Both the position numbers and the translations under genes were made by a program. The notes below the pieces were generated by a model. It did not search any database. It was not told where the DNA came from and saw only the letters and a program-made list of their open reading frames with translations. DNA of 64,000 nucleotides from Anodontia alba (lineage: Eukaryota > Mollusca > Bivalvia > Lucinida > Lucinidae), in the NCBI GenBank assembly GCA_964016985.1, contig OZ024825.1:35432057-35496056 (forward strand), in the 5' to 3' direction. Of this stretch, positions 1 through 43,329 are shown piece after piece. How positions within the stretch are numbered: position 1 is the stretch's first letter; the number at the start of each line of letters is the position of its first letter.

Positions 1-1095
1 TTTAGGGTAAAATCCACCAATTATTTTTGGAGTTACGGCCCTTTATCAATGTTGAAAAATAGTTGAAATATGGTTTCCGTTCGATATCTTTTGAAAGGAA
101 TGGTGTATTGGATTGAAATTTTATACAAAGGTATATAATAATAAAATGTAAGTCAAATTTGATTAAGGGTAAAATCCACCAATTATTTTAGGAGTTATGG
201 CCCTTTTTCAACTTTGAAAAATTTTCAACTTTGAAAATTGAAAAATGGTTTCCATGAGATATCTTTTGAAAGGATTGGTGTATTGGATTGAAATTTTATA
301 CACTGGTATATAATCATTAAATGTAGGTCAAGTTCGATTTAGAGTAAAATCCACCTATTCCCTTTTTCAACTTTGAAAAATGAAAATGGTTTCCATTCCA
401 TAACTTTTGAAAAGATTAGTGTATTGGATTCATATTTTATACACAAGCATATAATTATAAAATATACATGTAGGTCAAGTTCGATTTAGGGTAAAATCCA
501 CCAATTATTTTTGGAGTTACGGCCCTTAATCAATGTTGAAAAATAGTTGAAAAATGGTTTCTGTTCGATATCTTTTGAAAAGATTAATGTATTGGATTCA
601 AATTTTATACACAGGTATATACATTGTAATCATAAAATGTAGGTCAAGTTCGATTTAGGGTAAAATCCACCAATTATTTTGGGAGTTATGACCCTTTTTC
701 AACTTTGAAAAATGGTTTCCGTTCCATAATTTGAAAAGATTAGTGAATTGGATTCATATTTTATACACAAGCATATAGTTATAAAATATAGGTCAAGTTT
801 GATTTAGGGTAAAATCTTTTGAAAACATTAGTGTATTGAATTCATATTTAACACACAGGTATATCATCATAAAATAGAGGTCAAGTTCCAATTAGGGTAA
901 AATCAACCCATTATTATGGGAGTTATGGCCCTTTTTCTCCTTCAGAAGATGTTTTTCTTCCTATATTTTTTTAAAAAGATTGATTTATGTATTTGATTCA
1001 TATTTTGTACACAGGTATAATATGGTCAAGTTCGATTTAGGGTAAAATCTGCCAAATATTATGAGAGTTATGGCCCTTTTTTCAACTTCATTTTT
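1..1095. repeat. Tandem array, about 160-bp unit
   Basis: About seven degenerate copies of one unit follow each other. Each carries the landmarks TTTAGGGTAAAATCCACC, GGAGTTAYGGCCCTTT, GGTTTCCRTTC and TTTTATACACAGGTATATAA. Landmark copies start near 1, 163, 339, 483, 653, 811, 891 and 1035, so spacing varies by deletion. Arrays of this texture are the central part of the helitron/HINE-like elements further right; here the left end lies outside the window. No coding potential is seen. Confidence 0.85.
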
Positions 1096-27200: not shown

Positions 27201-30200
27201 TAAATGTTCTAAAATTTTGAACACCAAAGTGTCTGACAAAATGACATATGCAAACATTGCAGACCCAGATCAGACTGCTGGTCTACACTGTTTGCCATTA
27301 CACTAAGTATTTTAAGAAATAGGTGCATAAAAAGCACAATTTAGGCCATAATCGAAATTTTAAGACATATACCATACTTTGTTGTATGTGTTGTTAGTTT
27401 CTGATGTAAAAAGGCACTGTAGACCCAGGTCAGACACAGCAACATGCCATGTATGATATTAGGCAGTGTCTGATCAGGTTTTACATACTTTACCACTCTG
27501 ACATCCAGCATTTTTAGGCACATCAAAAGAGAGTAAAGCAGACTTATTCAGATTTGAGGACAAGTATGGTAAAGAATGAAGATGTCCAATATTTATGGTA
27601 AATTGGGTAGCACCGAAAGCCAGATATAAGTCTATAATTCTGCACAGTTTGATCATTGTTTGCAAAGTAGGAAGGCTATATCAGTCTTGCATCTGGGCCT
27701 TCTCAATAAAAATGCAGTATAACTTTATCCCTTAAAGTGCTAATCACAACTGCAGCAGATGACATTTTGATTGTCTTTGTTGTTGTTGTTTTTTTGTTGT
27801 TGTTGTTGTTGTTTTTTTTGTTTTTTTTTATTTTTTTTTTTGTTTTTTTTTTTTTGAGAAAATAAGTCTTGACATTTCATGTGAATTGTCTGTTAAGCAG
27901 ATAATTCACATAAAGTGCCAAGTTTTATTTTCTCTGAAAAATGATAAAACAAATTTTTTAGTCCTCTCTTCACGCTACCTCTCTTTCAAAACATGTGGCC
28001 ATGTGTACAGCTCTTGTGTACGGAGCGCAATGCTCCATGCCAGCGAGACTTGGCCATTGACAAAGCCGAACCTCCAGCGTCTGCAGCGAAATGACAAGGC
28101 AATGATCAGACAGATCTGCATTGTCAGGCCGCAAGACATTGTCACCACCAGGTCCAGTAATCTACTTGTGCGGCTTGGCATTGAGGATCTGGAACTCATT
28201 CTGAAGGAGTGAAGACTTCGATGGTATGGACATGTGGAACGCTCCAGTGGTGCAATCAAGACAGCCTTTGACATACAGGTTGATGGAAAGCGTGGGCCTG
28301 GGAGGCCCAAAATGACATGGAAGCAGCTGACAGAGAGGGATTGCAGAGAGTGGAAGCTCTCAGCTATCAACCCTCATGATAGACGTACCTGGAGATCTGG
28401 TGTGAGATCTGCCATGCGTGCAGCAAGCCAGCTATCTGGAAGGGGGCCCACTGATGTGGATGTTGCCCCTGTACCTGCATGTTAATCAAAAATCCGATTA
28501 TGATATGATTATATGATTTTAGAGTATCGTCTGCTACGATTTTGCTTAGCACTTTAAGCTTTATGTTTCTTTATTCAGATTCTTCAAGTATTTGACTCCT
28601 GTGCTGGTGAACTTGGACCAGATCAATTTCATACATTTGCCTTTCCTTACCTGAAGGATATTGCCTATAGAACTAGAGAAAAACTTGCAGAAGCTCGCTT
28701 AGAGCAAGTTCCTTTGGTAAGTATTGTAAGTTGAATCAAAATAGAAATGTTTAATGCTAGTTTATCTGACCAAGAAAACTTAACACTTCAGCTATTTTCA
28801 TTTTCTCATGGGCCATTTCTTTAGATTCTATAACAGAAAATGTTATAGAATCTATAACATAGATTCTGTAACAGAAAATGTTCTAAAATTTTGTACACCA
28901 AAGTTAGTCAAAATTGCATATGCAAATTGTGCAGACCCAGATCAGACTGCTCCTGAAGGAGCAGTCTGATCAGGGTCTACACTGTTTGCCATTCCACTTT
29001 GTATTTATAAACACAACTGCATAAAAAAAAGAAAAAAATAGGCCAAAAAGTATGGAATACAGTGTTCAAAAATTTAGGACATTTACCACAATCAGAGTCA
29101 GAAATATTTTTACAGCTGCAAGTTAGGACTGTAATGCGTAAGGGTTTTTCTATGATTTTAATCTACCCAGACTCAGCTATTCAGTGTGAAAATGGGTTTT
29201 AGGAATCCTTCTCTAGCAGAGCCTTTGTGGATTAGTCCACCATAAACTCACTCTTGACAGGAGTTTTGGGGCCATAAACTTAAACCTGATTTGTTTGTGC
29301 CATAATTTTCTTTAATATGAGCTAAATAAAACAAATTGTTTTCTTTGCTATAAGTTCAAACATGGTTTCTTTTTGCCATAAACTATCATTATTCTATGAA
29401 TCTTAAGCTCGGGCATAATTTTTGTTACATAAGCATCCACATGTCCAAGCAGATAGTGCTCCTTATTTTAAATCATGAGGCCTCAGGTTCAGATCCCACC
29501 ATGGAATTTACCGGCACAGTGGCTCAGTGGTAGAGCGTCCGCTTTGTGACTGGTAGGTTGCGGGTTCGATCCCCGGCCGGGTCATACCAAAGACCTTAAA
29601 AATGGTACTGGCTGCTCTTTCGCTTGGCACTCAGCATTAAGAAAGTAGAGCTAGGAATCAGAACTGGTCAGCTCAGTGTCAGTATAATGTGACTGGGTGG
29701 AATATCATGTCAAAGTGTCTGGGGCTTGATATTTCAGTGTGGCAGCACTCTAAAAATGAGCATTGAGCTCCCTGCCACATCCAGACACCGTCGCGATATG
29801 ACTGAAAGATTGTTGAAAGCGACTTTAAGCCCAAATCAAACAAACAAACCATGGAATTTAGCTAATGATTGTATGGGGCTTCATTGCATAGGGCCTCTCA
29901 TTATCACTCCTTCATTATCTCCATATGACCCATATGCTATCGAAAAAGATGTAAAACACTAAACCATGATCATCATGTCTGAAATCATGCTACACCACAA
30001 CCTCTTTACAACACTATTGTTGGGGTCCATAGCATAAACTGTGTTAGTTTAACAATCGTGTTATATCCAAACAAAAATGTATAGATTATATTGAAAAATG
30101 ACCATAAATGGTCATTTTTCAATATAATCTATACATTTTTTGGGATCCATCTTTGAACCGTGTTATGTCCAAAACCGTGCTATAATGAACAGTGAACAGT

Positions 30201-33200
30201 GTTATAAAGAGGCATTCTAATAAATTTTTGCACAAAGCAGACTTTATTGCTTAGCATGCTAGGTCGAGATTCCGTCCAACGACATGTTGATATATTGTTA
30301 TTGTTTTTTTTTTTGTTTTTTTTCAGAAAACAGGCTTTGATGTGCCATGTAAATTGTCTCATTATGAGACAATTTGCATGGAATGTCGAAGCCTCTTTTC
30401 TTGGAAAAATAAGAAAAACATCAGTTTGCCATCTGATGAATTTGCTCAGAGAGTGATAAAGGTTAAACTTAAAACAAATCAGAATTTTTTTCTGATTTGT
30501 TTTAAGTTTAACCTTTATCATTGGATTCAGTTATGATTACACTATAGTATCAGTCAGGATTGTGTTCTGTTACAGGTTGTTTTTGCTAAAGATGCCCACT
30601 TTGCTTTGGAAGATTTAGCCAATTGTGGATATGATGTTGTTTCGTTAGACTGGACTATAAAGCCAACACATGCAAGGTACATGTATAACTTAACTCTTTA
30701 AGTGTCAAGCAAAATTACCGCAGATGACAGTCTGATTTTGTTTTCTTATTATTTTTCAGAGTAAGAAGTCTTGACATTTCATGTCATGAAATATTAAGCT
30801 GTATTTTCTCTTAGTAAAAAAATATTTCAAAATGTCATCCACTGCAATTTTAATGGTTAATACCGTATAGTTTGGATTGGTGACATAGCTCTTGACGTTT
30901 TTTTTCAGTCCCAGAGTATTGATATTTTTCTTATTTCTCCACAAAAACATATATTGTGGGCACTCATTAGAAGCACCTCACTGAGGCTCTTCTAATGATT
31001 ACCCACAACATATGTTTTTCGTGGAGAAATAAGAAAAATACCTGATACCCACTCTTATCTAGACCTTTGGGTGATAAAGCAAATAAGAATTGGCAGTCAG
31101 CCATCTTATCTGGACATTCTGTTCAGACTTGGCTCAGCCTTCTGATCAGGACAGTTTGATCACTTTTGGGTCAGCCTGCTATCAGTCCTATCTCAGCCTA
31201 GTTTCCTGGACAGTCTGATCAGACCAGGCTTAGCCTACTTATCTAGACAGTCATGCTCAACCACAATTCTGATTAGTCCTGTCTTTGTCTACTTATCTGG
31301 ACAATCTCATCAGTTTTGGCTCAGTCTACATACCTGTACAGTCTGATCAGACCTCACTTGGTCTACATAATTATCTGGACAGTCCAATCAGGCCTCAATC
31401 AGTCTATATATCTGGACAGTCTGATGACCCCAGTCAGTCTACTTAGATACAGCTGGACAGTATGATCAGAGCTCAATCTACTTAACTGGACTGTCTATTC
31501 AGACTTCAATCTACTTAGCTGGACAGTCTGATCAGACCTCACTCAATCTACTTAGCTGGACAGTCCGATCAGACCTCAGTCTACTTAACTGGAGAGTCTG
31601 ATCAGACCTCACTCAGCAGACCTCACTCAGTCTACTTAGCTGGAGAGTCTGATCATACCTCATGCAGTCTATTTAGCTGGAGAGTCTGATTAGACCTCGC
31701 TCAATCTACTTAGCTGGAGAGTCTGATCAGACCTCACTCAGTCTATTTAGCTGGAGAATCTGATCAGACCTCACTCAATCTACTTAGCTGGAGAGTCTGA
31801 TCAGACCGCACTCGATCTGCTTAGCTGCACAGTCTGATCAGACCTCACTCAATTTACTTAGCTGGAAAGTCTGATCAGATCCAGCTTATCCTATTTATCT
31901 TGACAGTCCGATCAAACCTGTCAGCCTACTGATCTGGACAGACTGATCAGATCCACCACAGCCTACTTACCTGGACAGTCTCATCAGTTTTGGCAACCTG
32001 TTTAGGTGGACATATTCTAATCAGACCTAGCTCATCATTCTTACCTGGATAGTCTGATCAGACATGGTTCAGCCTTCATAGATAGACAGTCTGCTTAGAC
32101 CCATTTCTGCAAATTTATTTAGACAGGCTGACCTTATATGGAAAAAGCAATCAGATAATATACAAATTTATGCCTTTGAAATGCAATCAGATAATATACA
32201 AATTTATGCCATTGAAATGTATGAATGTTCAGGTTTATGCTTAATATGCTGGGAAAAATTCAGCAGATGACATCTTGAAATATTTTACTTGCTTTCCTCA
32301 TGAAATAGGCTTTGATATTTCATGCAAATTGTCTCCTGAGGAGACAATTTGCATGAAATGTCAAGGCCTATTTTCTGGGAAATACATATAATCAATTTGT
32401 CATCTGCTGAATTAGCTCAGACAGTGGTAAAGATTAATATGAGTGCTATATCACCAGATCACCAATAAGGTGTATTTTAATGACTTTGATTTACTGTCTA
32501 TGTTTCAGACGAGTGATGGGTAACAATATTACACTACAGGGCAACTTAGATCCAACATTACTCTATGCAGAAGAGGTTTGTACATTATTTACAATGTATC
32601 TGATCTAGGTCTAAATTGTTTCCTCAGGGGCATCTGATCAGGGTCTGTACTGTTTGCCTCTTGTCCAGCAGCTTTTAGACACATCAACAGGTAATAAAAT
32701 GCAGGGCCCAGTTGTTCAAAGCTAACAATGTTGTTAGTTAACGATTCGTTAAAATTTACATCGAGTGATACGCAAATATGCTGAAATTTTTTGCTGAATA
32801 AATGTGGGTAGCTCTAGCTACTCACGTCTTTTCAGCAAAACATATCAGAATATTGCATATTGAATCCACTAAAACAGTTAACGAAATGACCCTTTACGAG
32901 CACGTTAAGCTAATGACGCTTTGAACAGCTGGGCCCAGTTGTTTAAATTGTTGGACAAGTACGATAAGGAGTACAGGTGTCCAAATATTAAGGGTAAATA
33001 CAGTAAATCATTTGAGCCAGCACGTGACAAAACCTACAAAATGGCATGTGCACCCAGCAAAGACTCGGATCAGTCTCGGCATCTGCCTGGTCTGATCAGA
33101 GTTTTTGCTGTCCACATGAAAAAAAGCTTGGGTCCTCAGCTATCCATTGAGCGCACAGCAAAAACTCTGATCAGACTAGGCGGTTGCCCAGACTGATCTG

Positions 33201-36494: not shown

Positions 36495-36550
36495 GTATTG
36501 ACTTTGCACATTTCCCATTTAGTGTCACTTCATTTTAACTTCATAATACA

Positions 36551-36711
36551 TTAACCTATAGATAATGTGCTATTCTATTCTGTTTTCACACCTTCCACAG
36601 AAAAAACGACCTTTCAGTCGTTAATTAAAGTCTTAAACCAGAAGGTCCCTTAGGCAGTTACCTGTGTGACGTAACTCTTCCCGCTCAATTGACCACGTGT
36701 CAGTTTCTTTT
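36551..36711 (+). repeat. DIRS-like left inverted terminal repeat
   Basis: Starts TTAACCTATAGATAATGTGC and ends GACACGTGGTCA-complement then CAGTTTCTTTT. Every base pairs with 42499-42659. The left extension 36536-36550 precedes it. Confidence 0.92.
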
Positions 36712-37108
36712 CTGTGGACAAAGAAATTCAACAAGGATTATTTACCTGTATAGAAATTTGGATTATTTCTTTCCTCACGGATAAATTTATGTATCCTTGT
36801 GTTTCTTTTGTTTATTTATCACTCCTTTCACTTTCTGTGTTATTATTTAAAATTTTCAATTTTCGATTTCATGTATTTTTGACTGGTCTTTTTCCACATG
36901 CGTTTTGGCGACTCTCGCTATTCGGCACAACGCTCGTGCGCGATCGGTTCGACAGTCGTGTTTATATATGCAGAATATTTTTGTTCTTTTCGTTCCAGGT
37001 TATTCAGCAATTATGATATGTTTTTCCTGGACTTTTGTTTGCAGAGATCTTCAGTTGGCTAAAGATTCTCATGGTGGAGAAGCTGATTGTAAAGAACTTG
37101 TCAACCCT

Positions 37109-37187
37109 TGATGGGTTATAAGACAATTCTTTACTGATGGGAGCCCCACCCCATATGGCTATACTGCCGGGGTAAGACCCATCAAGG
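37109..37187. other. Hairpin in DIRS-like interior
   Basis: CCTTGATGGGT and ACCCATCAAGG are perfect complements about 57 nt apart, next to a T-rich stretch with a GTTTGCAG acceptor-like site. Role unknown. Confidence 0.4.
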
Positions 37188-37226
37188 TGGCATCTTTGGG
37201 TACTTAGTATCTTATAAAGTCTAAGT

Positions 37227-37456
37227 CCACCAGTCACCAGTCATCCAGTCACCAGTCACCAGTCAACCAGGCACCAGTCAATCAGCTTCACCAGTCACCA
37301 GTCAATCAGGTGCCAGTCAACCAGGCACCAGTCACCAGTCATCCAGGTGCCAGTCAACCAGGCACCAGTCACCAGTCACCCAGTCACCAGTCACCAGTCA
37401 TCCAGTCACCAGTCACCAGTCACCCAGTCACCAGTCACCAGTCAACTAGTCTCCAG
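37227..37456. repeat. (ACCAGTC)n short tandem repeat
   Basis: About 30 copies of a 7-bp unit ACCAGTC with interspersed ATCCAGTC, CAACCAGGC and CAATCAGG variants, forming a higher-order pattern. Lies inside the DIRS-like element. Confidence 0.9.
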
Positions 37457-37499
37457 TCAATAATTTAATTATTTTCTGGAAAGACTTTTCTGACATATT

Positions 37500-38370
37500 T
37501 CTGACATATTTCACCGGACAAAATAGGCACGTATACTAACTTCCGGTCATTATGTCTAATTATTAAAAAAATTTTTCACTGGGCAAAGTATCAGTAATAT
37601 TTCTGATACTTATACCCGGTCATATTATTATATTATTTCTGATTTTTCACCAGGCAAACTTTTACAGAAAGTGTCTGGTCAATTTTTGCCTAATAATTAA
37701 TTATCTTCGGGAAAAAGTTTCGAATACTTGTGCCCGCTCAGTTTTCATATATAATCTTCCTTTTTCATCGGACTAGAGTTACGAATACTACTATCCGATC
37801 AATTTGTCAAATTACTTGTAACTTTACCGGGCAACAGTTACGAATATTAGTGTCCGGTCATTGTGTCGGGTAACTAGTGTCAAAATAATGATTACTAATT
37901 CCCGAACAATCTATTATCGTTCATAGAGCTCCATTCACGTTTAAGTCAATGGATATAGGTTATTAAGTGAAATACATAATAACTTTTTATACAAAAAAAA
38001 AAAAAAAAAAAAAAAAAATTCTGTACAGTCTTTCCCAAATCAGACTAGAATTTTTAATATTCCATTGACTTATTATAGGTGTGTAATTCCATTAATATTT
38101 TAAATTAACTTATGTTTTATCTCTTTTATCCGCTAGAAAGAGTTAAACTTCCGACTATAACAAAATTCTTACCGGGCAGCAGTTCGTAGACTAGTGCCAG
38201 GTCATTCAAATGATGTTTTATCTCTTTAATTCGCTAGAAAGCGTTTAAATTCCGGCTCTAACGAAAATTTCATCGGGAGGCACTTCGTAGAGTAGTGCCA
38301 GGTCATTCTAACGAAATTCCACCGGGCAGTAGTTTCGTAGACTTTGTGTCGGATTACTAGTGTGTTCCAG
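37500..38370 (+). repeat. Degenerate hairpin array in DIRS-like interior
   Basis: Units about 60-100 bp apart read ACCGGRCA ... about 25 nt often with TTACGAATACTAGT ... TGTCCGGTCA. Left and right arms pair within each unit: ACCGGA/TCCGGT (37513, 37542), ACTGGG/CCCGGT (37578, 37615), ACCAG/CTGGT (37649, 37675), CGGG/CCCG (37708, 37733), ATCGGA/TCCGAT (37767, 37794), ACCGG/CCGGT (37826, 37854). Two longer units share CGCTAGAAAGMGTT and GTAGTGCCAGGTCATTC near 38110-38313. Confidence 0.6.
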
Positions 38371-41300
38371 GCTCAACATATATTCATATATAACCACTAT
38401 AGACATGTATAGTCTTGGATTATAGGTTATTGAATGACAGCGATGGGTTCTAATACCTAGTAGCCATTTATATTGTTGAATTCTGTCCAGTCATTTTTGA
38501 ACTTGACTTAAATTCTATATATATATTTATTATTGAAAATGAATTAAGAATTATCGGTTACGATCAAATTCGCAATTCATTCACTAAGTGTAGAAGATAC
38601 TTCCAGCTATAATTATATCTTGTTTGTTCGCTACAAAGAGATTAACTTCTTACATATTCACCTTATTCGGCTCTAGGGCAAAGGTGAACTATAAAACTAT
38701 CGTTATTTATAAGAAGAAAAATATATACGAAATATAAAAAATTTTCTTCTTTCCTCCCCTGTTTTTCTTCTACATGCTCCGATATGTAATCAGCATGTAA
38801 TCTAAGGAGTAAATTGACAAGAAAGTAGCAATCGATCTTTTCTACTTTCTATTAATTTTTCATTCTTAAGGTATCGGAAATTTACACCAACCAGATAAAT
38901 AAATTAACAGTTTATTTATTTATTCGCTACCTCTCTAGATTACTACGATTTAAAATTCTAGTTGAGGTACATATTTTCCTTTTGCCTTTTCTACATGGAA
39001 AATAGTTGATCCGATAAGCTATTATTCTATTTTATACTATCTTTTGATTGATTATATTAGAGTCTAGGTCAGTCGTGCTCTGTCTAAACTCTGCTATAAA
39101 ATAATAAATAAGAAAAAAATCTTATATTTAGGCATAGATATAATTTGATACGTTCTTTACTTTGCCTGTTTTATTTTTTCTTCTGGATCATTTAAGACTA
39201 CGATAGCAATATACCAGATATTTTTGCCTCAGTAAGAATCTATTACGCTGAAGATTCTTCATATTGGAATAATAATTTTATTATGATTATAATTCTAGAC
39301 CCAATTTATCCTCGTATATTATAGGTCTACTTTATCTTATTGAGGAATAGTTTTGCTTCGACTAGCTCTATACCTCTAATATTTTATTTATAACTAGAGT
39401 CCATGTCAATCAAAATTTTCTTGCACTTTGGTATTGACAATGGATACATATTTAGAAAAGGCATTAATTATTCAGTACGTGACAGATTATTATTGCCTAA
39501 ATTAGATTTTATATACATACTTTCCTTTTGATATTTTGTTTTATTGACTTTGTAACTATTCAGAAACTGCCAAAGTCAATCATTTCCTTCCTCTAAACTT
39601 ACCGAAGCTCTAGATTATGTTGATATATATTTTTGATATATGCTTAGAGGTTAATTAACGAGAGTTTACCTCATAATAGCAGATATTATTATAATTATAT
39701 TAATCAATCTATAGTCTAGGCTTAGACAAAAGGGAAAACATCCTTAATTATTAGTATACGAGCCGGTAAAGAATTAAGACACTCTTAATTATCTCTTTAC
39801 CCCTCCTTTATGTTTACATTCGTTAAAGGGATCATAGTAATTCTCGCTAAGAGTTCAAGTTCAGTTTGCGAATAATGCAAAGATTAATATCTTGATTTCC
39901 AGTCCGCATCAAAAATGGTCTATATATATAGATAAATATCTTTCCGAAACTGGATATTTATTTATTTTTCCACACAATAAGTCATTTCAAGATGTCGATG
40001 ATTTTGAAATGCACTGCTTCAATTTATAATATAAAATATGTTTATATTAACTTCACAACTTAGTAAGTGCTGCACCTACGTTCCTGGTCAGATCTTACTT
40101 TTGTGATACGTTTTTGAACATACTGAAAGTTTTCTCCGATTATACATTCGGTAAATAAACTTTCGAGTAGTATTTATGCCTTTAAACATTCAGATTATTT
40201 GATAATTGTTGGAGATAATATATTATTCCGATATTTATATATCTATCTTCATTATTTATCTTTCTCATCTTACTTTTAAATTAGATTGACCTTCTCGCTA
40301 CGTTCCAGGTTTAAATCTAGCTAACATTGTGGAACAGTCACTTTTTTATTTCCTAAACAATATTTTAACATTTTTCTCAGTATTCAGAGCATAACGACTT
40401 CATGAATACTTGAAAATAATTCAGTTCTACGCTTGTTAAACTAAGCCTAAAACAAGCCCTAGTTTTTTAGAATGGATATTATCCTTCGATTCAGTTCATG
40501 GAGATACATCCTTTTAGATCCCATTATCTCTATTTCAATCATTCAAAATTCTAATGACTAAGTACTCCTTTTCTACGTACGAATACAGAATATCGAGTCA
40601 CTGTTGCTGCATATTGGTTAAAGATTAAACAAATTTTATCTTAAACCTATATGACGTTAAATTAATTATTATCTCTTTCATATACATGTTTTTACCCTTC
40701 CGTCAGGGATCGCGGTAATAATATTATTACTCTCTATGGTTTACACATAGATCTCGAGAGTATATATATGTATTTTCTTCCTGAACTCATTTGCGAGTAC
40801 GTAATTTGATATTTCAGGAATTACCAATTATGCAGACATAGATTTTATTCTATTAATATTCAATTCTAAAAAAATTTGATTGAATGTTTATCTATAAAAT
40901 TTCCGGGCAGTAATTTTATAGAGAGTTATATGTTTAATAATTCCTTGCTTAAATAATAGTTACGCTTAACCTATGATTTATAGCGGGAATTTTGTTCAGT
41001 AGTATAATTTTTATTTAGTATTAATATATTTCTTACTATTCTTAAATATGCGTATAGAATAGTAATACTATCTCTTAACTCTTAAATTAAGTGTTTTTTG
41101 AGATTAATAATCAGTATTATTGTATAATCTTTCTTCAGAGATTATCACACTATTACTTTTTCTCTGAGTCCTTCTCTTTTTATGAACATTTTGATTCGTA
41201 TCAAAGTGGATTTTTTAACATTTCTTGATTTCCATGATTATTTACTCAGGAGTACTTTTCATGGCAATCTTCTGGTATAGAAAGATTCTATCCAGCTTAT

Positions 41301-42078
41301 TTATTATTGTTTAATCTTATCAATACGGTAAGATTTAGCCAAACTATGACCGTCATACAGTTTGCTGCGATCAACCTTATTCTTATCTCTCTTATTCTCT
41401 GTCAAACTCTTTAGTTATGATGTTGACAGTTTATTCTTTATTTTTTGTCAGGACATCAAACGCTTTTATATGTCTATGACAAAACTAATTATCAATGGTT
41501 TAGGTTGTTTTTTCTTCCCAGCAGTTATATGCAAACTCTGTATTATTTTATTGCTTGACTAAAAATTCGTTATACAATTAGTCTAGCAATAGTTTTAACC
41601 ATTATGTTTGTCTATACTTTTTTTTCTTCTGATGGATAACTTAGTTATAGTTAAGTTAACTCCATCTACTTTTATTATCTCCCCTTCTTTAATTTGATCA
41701 AGGGAAATAATTACACATTATGGTTATTTTAAGTCTGTGTCTGTTCATCGGAAACTGTCCTGTCGCTCCAATTAACAGAATTTAATTAGTTTATAATTCT
41801 AATAGCTTAGACTATTACAATTACATAGCTTCACATATCTAGAATTTTATCCAAAATATCTACATATGTCAGTTATCTATAGGAAACTCCACCGAGTAGA
41901 CTTTTCCTTATTTATTCAAGATCCTACATAGACTACTTACAGTGTATGGTCTTGGCTTTTTGTTTTACAAATTTTGTTTTCAAAATTTTCTATATTCCTA
42001 GCTTACTTTGCGATGGAATATTTATGTTATGTCTCAATGACTCCCTTTTCTTTTTGAAGCCAATTGTTGTTTCCCAAA
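38371..42078. other. DIRS-like interior, 3.7 kb without ORF or clear repeat
   Basis: AT-rich sequence with no ORF above about 66 codons on either strand, no poly-Gly, reverse transcriptase or recombinase motif, and none of the MITE or SINE families that fill the rest of the window. The absence of secondary insertions fits a young element. Confidence 0.6.
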
Positions 42079-42130
42079 AAGAAAAAAAGAGGGGGGGGGG
42101 GGGGCCAATGTTAGGTCTCTGAGACTTAAG
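42079..42130 (+). other. Purine tract followed by TGTTAGG, LTR-like look
   Basis: AAAAAGAAAAAAAGAG runs into a G-run of about 15, then CCAATGTTAGGTCTCTGAG. It resembles a polypurine tract followed by the first bases of an LTR, but no second copy of the downstream sequence is present at the left end. Confidence 0.3.
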
Positions 42131-42341
42131 AACTGGCTTCCTCTAGAGTCTACTAATATATATAAGGTTGTTAGATCATAACACCTTAAAGCTATTTTGT
42201 GAATCTAGACCATTCTTTCTATTAAATATAGAATTAGAATGTATCTGATTCCTTTGAGTTTCCTGAGTCTTAACCAGAAGTGGTGAGATATTATTGGTGT
42301 TAGAATTAGGAGAGCACCTCCCTCCTATTCTGCAAATTCTA

Positions 42342-42436
42342 GCACATTATCTATAGGTTAATGTATTATGAAGTTAAAATGAAGTTTTTTAAAAGTAAAA
42401 CATATTTTAACGAGTAATACTTAACCTATAGATAAT
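42342..42436 (-). repeat. DIRS-like internal complementary region
   Basis: GCACATTATCTATAGGTTAA (ITR end), then the complement of the left extension (42362-42376), AAATGAAGT (42377-42385), the complement of the right extension (42386-42420), and TTAACCTATAGATAAT (ITR end). It is thus an inverted copy of the junction that would form if the element were a circle. Confidence 0.88.
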
Positions 42437-42498
42437 CAGTTATCTCCCTCCGCCCACCCTCGCTTATCTCTCCTAATTGTGTCTATTGTTTTACACAT

Positions 42499-42659
42499 AA
42501 AAGAAACTGACACGTGGTCAATTGAGCGGGAAGAGTTACGTCACACAGGTAACTGCCTAAGGGACCTTCTGGTTTAAGACTTTAATTAACGACTGAAAGG
42601 TCGTTTTTTCTGTGGAAGGTGTGAAAACAGAATAGAATAGCACATTATCTATAGGTTAA
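42499..42659 (-). repeat. DIRS-like right inverted terminal repeat
   Basis: Exact reverse complement of 36551-36711. It is followed by the 35-bp right extension (42660-42694) and the border ACTTCATTT. Confidence 0.92.
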
Positions 42660-42763
42660 GTATTACTCGTTAAAATATGTTTTACTTTTAAAAAACTTCA
42701 TTTCACCAGTTAGTGTACAGATGCTGAATTAGCATGAAATGAATGTACCTTACAGAAGGGAGC

Positions 42764-43329
42764 ATCACGAAAACATGCCTATATAGTTTTGACCCCCTTA
42801 AACCCTACTTTTATACAGTAAACTGGGGTTTACAGGGGTATACATTAATTTTATTTCTGCTCAAAAACATAGATTGTGGGTACTCCTTAGAACTGCCTTG
42901 CTGAGGCAATTCTAACAAGTACCCACAACCTATGTTTTGAGCAGAAATATTGGGGTGGTCGGGTGGTGCGAAGGTGTTGTGTATCTTGCGTCACCGGGGC
43001 TTCCAACTGATATTGGCTTACAGATGGGCAAGGCCTGCTATCCTTGTAGCAGGTAAGGGTAGAGGGAGAATGTTTTTATTTCTTCTGTTTCTTCACTTTC
43101 ATTCCTGTTCCTCTTTCTTCCCTGTCCCTCTCTTTCATCTCCTCTACTCTTCTATTTTCTCACTTTCTCTGGGAGATGACAAAATGACCCACAAGGGTTG
43201 ACGTGTCGTTAAACCCCAACATAATTAATGAGCAGACATATGAAAACTACCAGAATTTTGACATCTGAAAGTTTTCATTTTTTGGTGGTAAAATTCTCAA
43301 TATTTTTGAATAGGCATGTTTTCATAATG
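42764..43329 (+). repeat. Core B MITE Bb interrupted by SINE S3
   Basis: ATCACGAAAACATGCCTATA at the left, CATAGATTGTGGGTACTCCT/AACAAGTACCCACAACCTATG hairpin, then a SINE, then the rest: GACATCTGAAAGTTTTCATT, TTGGTGGTAAAATT, and GAATAGGCATGTTTTCATAA. Confidence 0.8.
42951..43229 (+). mobile_element. SINE S3 with imperfect TSD
   Basis: GGGGTGGTCGGGTGGTGCGA at the head, AAGGTGTTGTGTATCTTGCG, GCTATCCTTGTAGCAGGTAA, a pyrimidine-rich stretch, and tail GGGTTGACGTGTCGTTAAAC then CCCAAC. Flanked by GAGCAGAAATAT (42939-42950) and GAGCAGACATAT (43230-43241). A second copy is 45781-46021. Confidence 0.75.

Follow-up and report, generated by a model that had tools for sequence, protein, structure and literature searches.

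A long DIRS-type element without recognisable genes in Anodontia alba and the coding family that likely mobilises it

Among described mobile elements, the DIRS1-like retrotransposons (DIRS-1 itself, and AcaDIRS and LgDIRS from molluscs) are among those closest to the element reported here, which shares with them, going by the parts of PMC3266345 available to us, inverted terminal repeats (ITR), an extension, an internal complementary region (ICR) equal to the circle junction and an ATT-type core. It lies at 36532-42703 of a 64,000-nucleotide stretch of DNA from Anodontia alba (hereafter the window, whose coordinates are used throughout) and is confirmed as a real, 6.1-kb DIRS-type element without recognisable genes, its length falling within the 3.8-6.3 kb of Table 3 in the same partly available source. 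DIRS-1 encodes reverse transcriptase (RT), RNase H and methyltransferase together with a tyrosine recombinase (YR), whereas the window element encodes none of these.

Gene-free YR retrotransposons are already known in principle. SIRE, the non-autonomous form of VIPER in trypanosomes, likewise lacks genes and has a coding relative, but it is given in the available parts of PMC6681497 as ~0.4 kb long and mostly made of VIPER ends, whereas the window element is 6.1 kb long, with an unrelated interior and a DIRS-type ICR. We found no long gene-free DIRS described in the open-access literature searched (subscription papers and Repbase, where a description may exist, were outside its scope). Non-autonomous long terminal repeat (LTR) retrotransposons of the LARD or Dasheng-RIRE2 type combine a long non-coding interior with a coding partner sharing their cis ends, and differ from the window element in having LTRs and a DDE integrase where it has inverted repeats, an ICR and a YR partner. 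Membership of the Ngaro or PAT groups was rejected, inverted repeats and an ICR being found rather than split direct repeats.

Our main conclusion, to which we give a probability of roughly 0.86, is that this non-coding element likely owes its reverse transcription, its circularisation and its insertion to enzymes supplied in trans, the RT/RNase H and YR of a coding DIRS family in the same genome; transcription, the use of these enzymes in trans and the circle are steps that we infer. An earlier note, made from the sequence alone, had read the locus as a non-autonomous DIRS, and both halves of that reading gained support, from (i) repeats that are not unique to this locus, (ii) an ICR that mirrors the ends of its own copy in 20/21 copies, (iii) an empty site without duplication and (iv) coding DIRS in the same genome with a nearly identical right end and ICR.

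Structure, copies and insertion sites

The two ITRs match over their full length (161/161), just as the earlier note had claimed, and the 22-nt ITR tip occurs in the window three times exactly and once with 3 mismatches, against 0 occurrences in 100 shuffles. The ICR had been read as the reverse complement of the junction between the element's ends, including a right extension of 35 bp and a left one of 15 bp; both extensions are exact in the ICR, and only the span given for it (42342-42436) needs correction, the match being exact over 97 nt (42340-42436). Because the target junction is absent from the linear element, a match of this length cannot be chance. The layout of extensions, ITRs and ICR fits the DIRS1 plan in the available parts of PMC3266345, under whose scheme the 15-bp left extension could equally be a divergent part of the ITR, and therefore no claim is rested on its presence.

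The repeats are not unique to this locus, which represents a family and not a single odd copy. In the assembly searched (1,862,613,979 bases), a 39-base ITR pattern, with at most 3 mismatches allowed, had 3,815 matches (1,893 + 1,922; 0 for the reversed-pattern control), and a 31-base ICR mark of the window element with up to 2 mismatches gave 1,631 (769 + 862; control 0). Coding or diverged elements do not inflate the ITR count, because the pattern is at least 4 mismatches away from 14/14 such right ends tested. We estimate the family at 1,600-1,900 copies, which at ~6.14 kb each would total ~10-11.7 Mb if every one were complete (calculated for 1,631 and 1,907 copies). The 100 ITR matches listed comprise 43 head-to-head pairs (86 matches), of which 37 are spaced by 5,975-6,105 bases, and 14 single matches. 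Twenty of the 43 pairs were retrieved, all on C1, and make up with the window copy the 21 copies compared here; the window element aligns end to end with 20/20, an inserted stretch being present in five, one of which (L032) also lacks ~130 bp.

Pairwise substitution identity among the 21 copies averages 99.09% (98.5-99.7%), with 360 singleton against 63 shared variants, and this combination of high identity and mostly singleton variants argues for a recent, star-like burst. Both ITRs of one copy are identical in 13/21, and the flanks of the retrieved copies differ, apart from a shared hot spot. Older relatives exist as well: L060, which belongs to another DIRS family, interrupts an older copy of the window-type interior (89% identical, with gaps), and L063 shares the right part of that interior at 77%. 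The best reading of the window element is that of a long, old and abundant non-autonomous DIRS.

The correspondence between ICR and ends, assessed with the core taken as ATTTT, follows individual copies. The extra base that L035 has in its right extension recurs in its ICR, and in older lineages, where the right extension varies (e.g. ATTGCTAG for ATTACTCG), the ICR of the same copy mostly varies alike; mismatches between ICR and right extension also occur, in the degenerate copies L062, L063, L064 and L076. A one-base G variant of the left extension and ICR has 705 + 730 exact matches (control 0). The 100 of these that were listed all lie on C1 and comprise 40 pairs on opposite strands (80 matches), whose members are 5.5-12 kb apart with a median of 5.84 kb, and 20 unpaired matches. 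In the 38 non-coding ICR marks counted on C1 within the range of these G-variant matches (four listed marks beyond 99.3 Mb being excluded), G stands at both left extension and ICR in 2 and at neither in 35.

The left border reads TTTT in 21/21 copies; the preceding base is A in 16 and G in the other 5, and the base before that is a pyrimidine in 20/21, giving YRTTTT as the target. A 9-bp ACTTCATTT at both ends had been proposed as the border. It is there in the window copy and is not a general border, because ACTTC before the left core is unique to that copy (1/21) and the shared core is TTTT/ATTTT; ACTTCAT stands at the right end in 21/21 copies and is therefore element sequence. An (A)TTTT core of 4-5 bp forms the insertion border. 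The earlier note had counted any other border against a DIRS; the (A)TTTT core still fits the DIRS plan. One exact empty site was found, the copy L040 (G000 C1:19002300-19008980) having inserted into a second member of the family, with joined flanks that equal the target sequence of the window copy exactly, a single short core of 5 shared bases and no target duplication. DIRS without target duplications are reported in the available parts of PMC8969392, and the nesting recalls the self-preference of Dictyostelium DIRS-1 described in those of PMC5633606. At the window locus, the predicted empty site would read ...GTGTCACTTCATTTCACCAG...

Five of the 20 retrieved copies (L041-L045) are inserted at about one place of a dispersed repeat, with GTACC... 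and TTTT on the two sides of the insertion point. The joined flanks of L041, L043, L044 and L045 come close to copies of the repeat that stand uninterrupted in the window (1-3 mismatches, 4-6 shared bases), and those of L042 fit no repeat copy in the window. The repeat is a short dispersed hairpin (GTACCCACAA...ATGTTTTGAGCAGAAATA), seen in the window at 42840-42950 and near 31003, 35366, 35439, 50165 and 50672, and is likely a hot spot for the window DIRS family.

A coding partner and the predicted cycle

A diverged ITR/ICR tip pattern gave 30 matches (control 0), of which seven were read, and five of these (L062, L064, L065, L066 and L068) have a related ICR with degenerate YR coding sequence directly upstream of it, an assignment based on translation and on the similarity of these copies to one another. 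A 78-aa YR fragment returned 2,814 candidates, and among the 150 scored and listed at least 34 fall within frames that stay open for 970-1,077 codons (YR counts are lower bounds). The 3' ends of eight copies were read, seven of a young type and one older (L076).

The young copies nearly match the window element's right end. In the five complete ones (L070-L073 and L075), the right extension matches at 35/35, the outer ITR at 27/27 and the ICR at 95/97, whereas the inner ITR matches at only 118-119/132 (~90%) and the spacer at 48/60; among themselves the five are 415-417/417 identical. Including L069, which has an ITR deletion, and the slightly older L074, the right extension is 35/35 in 6/7 coding copies scored (33/35 in L074; the end of L076 is unscorable), the outer ITR is identical in 7/7, and the ICR matches at 95/97 in six and 92/96 in L074. 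Window and coding families also have the same right border and a similar spacing from left extension to ICR (~5.8 kb). On C1 below 99.3 Mb, 23 of the 26 YR matches listed have a near-identical G-variant ICR within 700 bp; 11 further C1 matches lie beyond the range of the G-variant matches listed (>99.3 Mb). The interior is what sets the two apart, coding DIRS of this genome (L069-L075 and L077) having RT/RNase H and YR where the window element has non-coding DNA.

One coding copy, L077, was read through. It has an RVT_1 match (E=2.7e-21) and RNase H, as well as an overlapping frame of 996 codons with a YR at its end; this YR aligns over 334 aa (25% identity) with another YR having a Pfam Phage_integrase match (E=1.5e-11). 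The earlier note had advised a search for copies with the same ends carrying RT/RNase H, methyltransferase and YR; RT/RNase H, YR and a nearly matching right end are there, and the methyltransferase is discussed below. Among 120 listed relatives of the YR, its motif is found in 108, with Arg at a position where L077 has Ser in 104/108, including the cluster P0001 (58 members, 99% identical), so that copies with Arg there do exist. A PDB search with the partner YR found nothing. Three of the relatives (P0039, P0088 and P0106) carry the name of the clam symbiont Candidatus Thiodiazotropha and probably derive from host DNA that stayed behind in metagenome bins of the symbiont.

The window element is classed as a non-autonomous rather than a full DIRS because RT/RNase H and YR are absent from it and present in the partner. 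Its cycle would involve (i) a transcript that starts in the left ITR and heads to the right end, (ii) copying of this transcript by the partner's RT, (iii) an end-to-end join templated by the ICR, by which both extensions would be rebuilt from one internal master, (iv) formation of a double-stranded circle with the predicted junction AAAAAACTTC-ATTTT-AACTTC and (v) recombination by the partner's YR between the circle core CTTC-ATTTT-AACTTC and a chromosomal YRTTTT site, which would leave no target-site duplication.

Alternative readings and opposing evidence

That the element is a non-autonomous DIRS driven mainly by another YR family is improbable, although the genome does hold several such families (38 Dam matches), among them elements with split direct repeats and others with palindromic ends. 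At 8/8 Dam loci read, the 4 kb on the downstream side have no match to the window ITR or ICR, only simple-repeat or short chance matches, and Dam-bearing families were rejected as partners for want of a matching terminus there, whereas the family identified above is exact at the right extension and outer ITR. Among these other families, L051-L053, L056, L058, L059 and L061 are Dam-bearing YR retrotransposons with direct repeats of ~65-110 bp near their 3' ends, which suggest split direct repeats rather than ITRs. L054, L055 and L060 represent a further DIRS-like type: Dam lies upstream, a YR is present (Phage_integrase ~1e-11 in L054 and L055), and the palindromic ends bear no relation to those of the window element.

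Another reading dispenses with reverse transcription altogether: a Crypton-like DNA circle would be moved by YR catalysis, and gene conversion would keep ICR and ends identical. Both routes agree with a circle core and with duplication-free insertion of the YR type, and no lost intron or other direct trace of an RNA step was seen, yet the partner carries RT and RNase H, and the DIRS model gives the ICR the role of a template for cDNA synthesis (in the available parts of PMC5633606), which makes this route very unlikely.

We find it hard to believe that a once-coding DIRS amplified by itself and that its genes then decayed, even though the right terminus and ICR are common to coding DIRS and the genome contains the degenerate coding copies L062, L064, L065, L066 and L068. 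Decay of this kind sits poorly with 21 copies that are 99.1% identical on average and among which no frame within element sequence exceeds 151 codons, from which it follows that the gene-free form itself was copied; the earlier note had likewise argued that simple decay does not explain the lack of coding sequence. It had also stated that no open reading frame exceeds about 100 codons, and the longest stop-to-stop frame of the window element, at 107 aa, is of chance length, since 25% of 200 dinucleotide shuffles reach it. Neither the RT nor the YR of the partner resembles the interior (no tblastn match below E=2, against 4e-98 for the degenerate control L065), and older copies (L060 and L063) share parts of the same interior.

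Finally, an ordinary transposon with terminal inverted repeats, or an assembly artefact, would account for the long inverted repeats and is excluded by the exact empty site without target duplication (L040) and by an ICR that exactly reproduces a junction present only in circular form, to which 20 copies with different flanks (save at the hot spot) and 1,631 dispersed ICR marks can be added.

Several observations weigh against mobilisation in trans by the coding family. The RNA, the circle and a new insertion are all steps that we infer, the case being built from genome sequence. Among the copies, the ICR of L050 departs from its own junction by 1 base, and C1:85351052 has the G left extension and no G match within 150 bp of its mark (nearest 310 bp). 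A DNA search with the ITR itself matched nothing, the window included (that search skips very common words). A frame of 150-151 codons at element positions 135-587 (window ~36670-37122), which overlaps the inner ITR, is open in 13/21 copies; only 1% of shuffles reach this length, and it may encode a small peptide. As a gene it was rejected, since it is shorter in 8/21 copies (that of the window among them) and looks frame-shifted or broken in the older copy in L060. On the partner's side, (i) the L077 YR has no Pfam Phage_integrase match, only a sub-threshold SAM-like domain, (ii) the Dam methyltransferase domain of L077 (E=0.065) is below the Pfam cut-off, (iii) the Ser of its YR stands where relatives have the Arg that we take to be the first catalytic Arg, so that L077 may be inactive, (iv) RT integrity was read in this one copy and (v) coding left ends are matched only indirectly, via G-variant pairs (40 among the 100 matches listed, on C1). 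Block 37602-37661 is also identical (60/60) to the older copy in L060, the leader block discussed below not being the sole identical one. This last point, and the ambiguity of 1/3 G-variant non-coding copies, lowered our confidence slightly.

The interior, its leader block and what the family may mean

The coordinates of all features are collected in Table 1.

Table 1. Parts of the window copy and the observations that define them
Feature	Position	Strand	Observation
Left core ATTTT	36532..36536	+	Common to target and element
Left extension, 15 bp	36536..36550	+	Exact complement within ICR; sequence same in 21/21 copies
Left ITR, 161 bp	36551..36711	+	Reverse complement of 42499-42659
AT-rich interior, 5.6 kb, no recognisable coding sequence	36712..42339	+	Chance-level open reading frames; no tblastn match to partner RT/YR
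Leader block, predicted strong hairpins, candidate cis-acting RNA signal	37062..37181	+	Fold z-scores; 120/120 against older copy in L060
CCAGTCA minisatellite, likely source of length differences between copies	37228..37459	+	Gapped against L060
Intact target sequence (empty site), split by same-family insertion in L040	39210..39239	+	L040 joined flanks match exactly, 5 bases shared
ICR, reverse complement of predicted circle junction	42340..42436	+	97/97 exact
Right ITR, 161 bp	42499..42659	+	Outer 27 bp equal to coding partner's; inner 118-119/132 in five complete copies
Right extension, 35 bp (42660-42694), plus element-owned ACTTC	42660..42699	+	ACTTC at right end in 21/21 copies
Right core ATTT	42700..42703	+	AT(T/A)T at right border in 21/21 copies

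RNA folding of the whole element is unremarkable (z averages -1.48 on either strand, with flank values of -1.63 and -1.57), with 33% of plus-strand segments below z -2 in the element against 25% in the flanks. The leader block has z-scores of -2.4 to -4.7 for segments starting at 37040-37100, on both strands, and is identical in the window and the older copy in L060, most other 60-nt blocks being 88-98% alike. Its identity is suggestive of constraint, as read from this comparison, and is not proof; a packaging role may be supposed. Elsewhere in the interior, 38107-38308 hold two tandem 101-bp units, 82% alike (CCGGGCA...AGGTCATT), with looser relatives upstream. Searched over the whole window at gathering thresholds, Rfam has no match in the element, the sole match being a tRNA outside it (29513-29584, 37.8 bits).

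A bolder proposal, which we hold tentatively and rate just short of an even bet, is that the family is a long-lived, gene-free lineage of DIRS RNA parasites and not a recent deletion derivative: it would have kept its own non-coding interior through lineages 77-89% alike, be matched in length to a coding host that it outnumbers, and use its structured leader as a packaging signal. If true, this lineage would be the DIRS equivalent of LARDs, and the split between conserved ends and a free remainder would define the complete cis set for DIRS replication.

DIRS are reported in bivalves at low copy number (in the available parts of PMC10294476), and 1.36 and 1.80 Mb of DIRS are annotated in two hard clam assemblies (in those of PMC8905726); set against these figures, the ~10-11.7 Mb that this one Anodontia alba family would reach at full length suggests a blind spot in repeat annotation. 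Since the window family and its coding partner share only their ends and ICR, they offer a natural map of candidate cis-acting sequences, and these shared ends, together with the copy-specific match of the ICR, amount to a ready-made reporter design.

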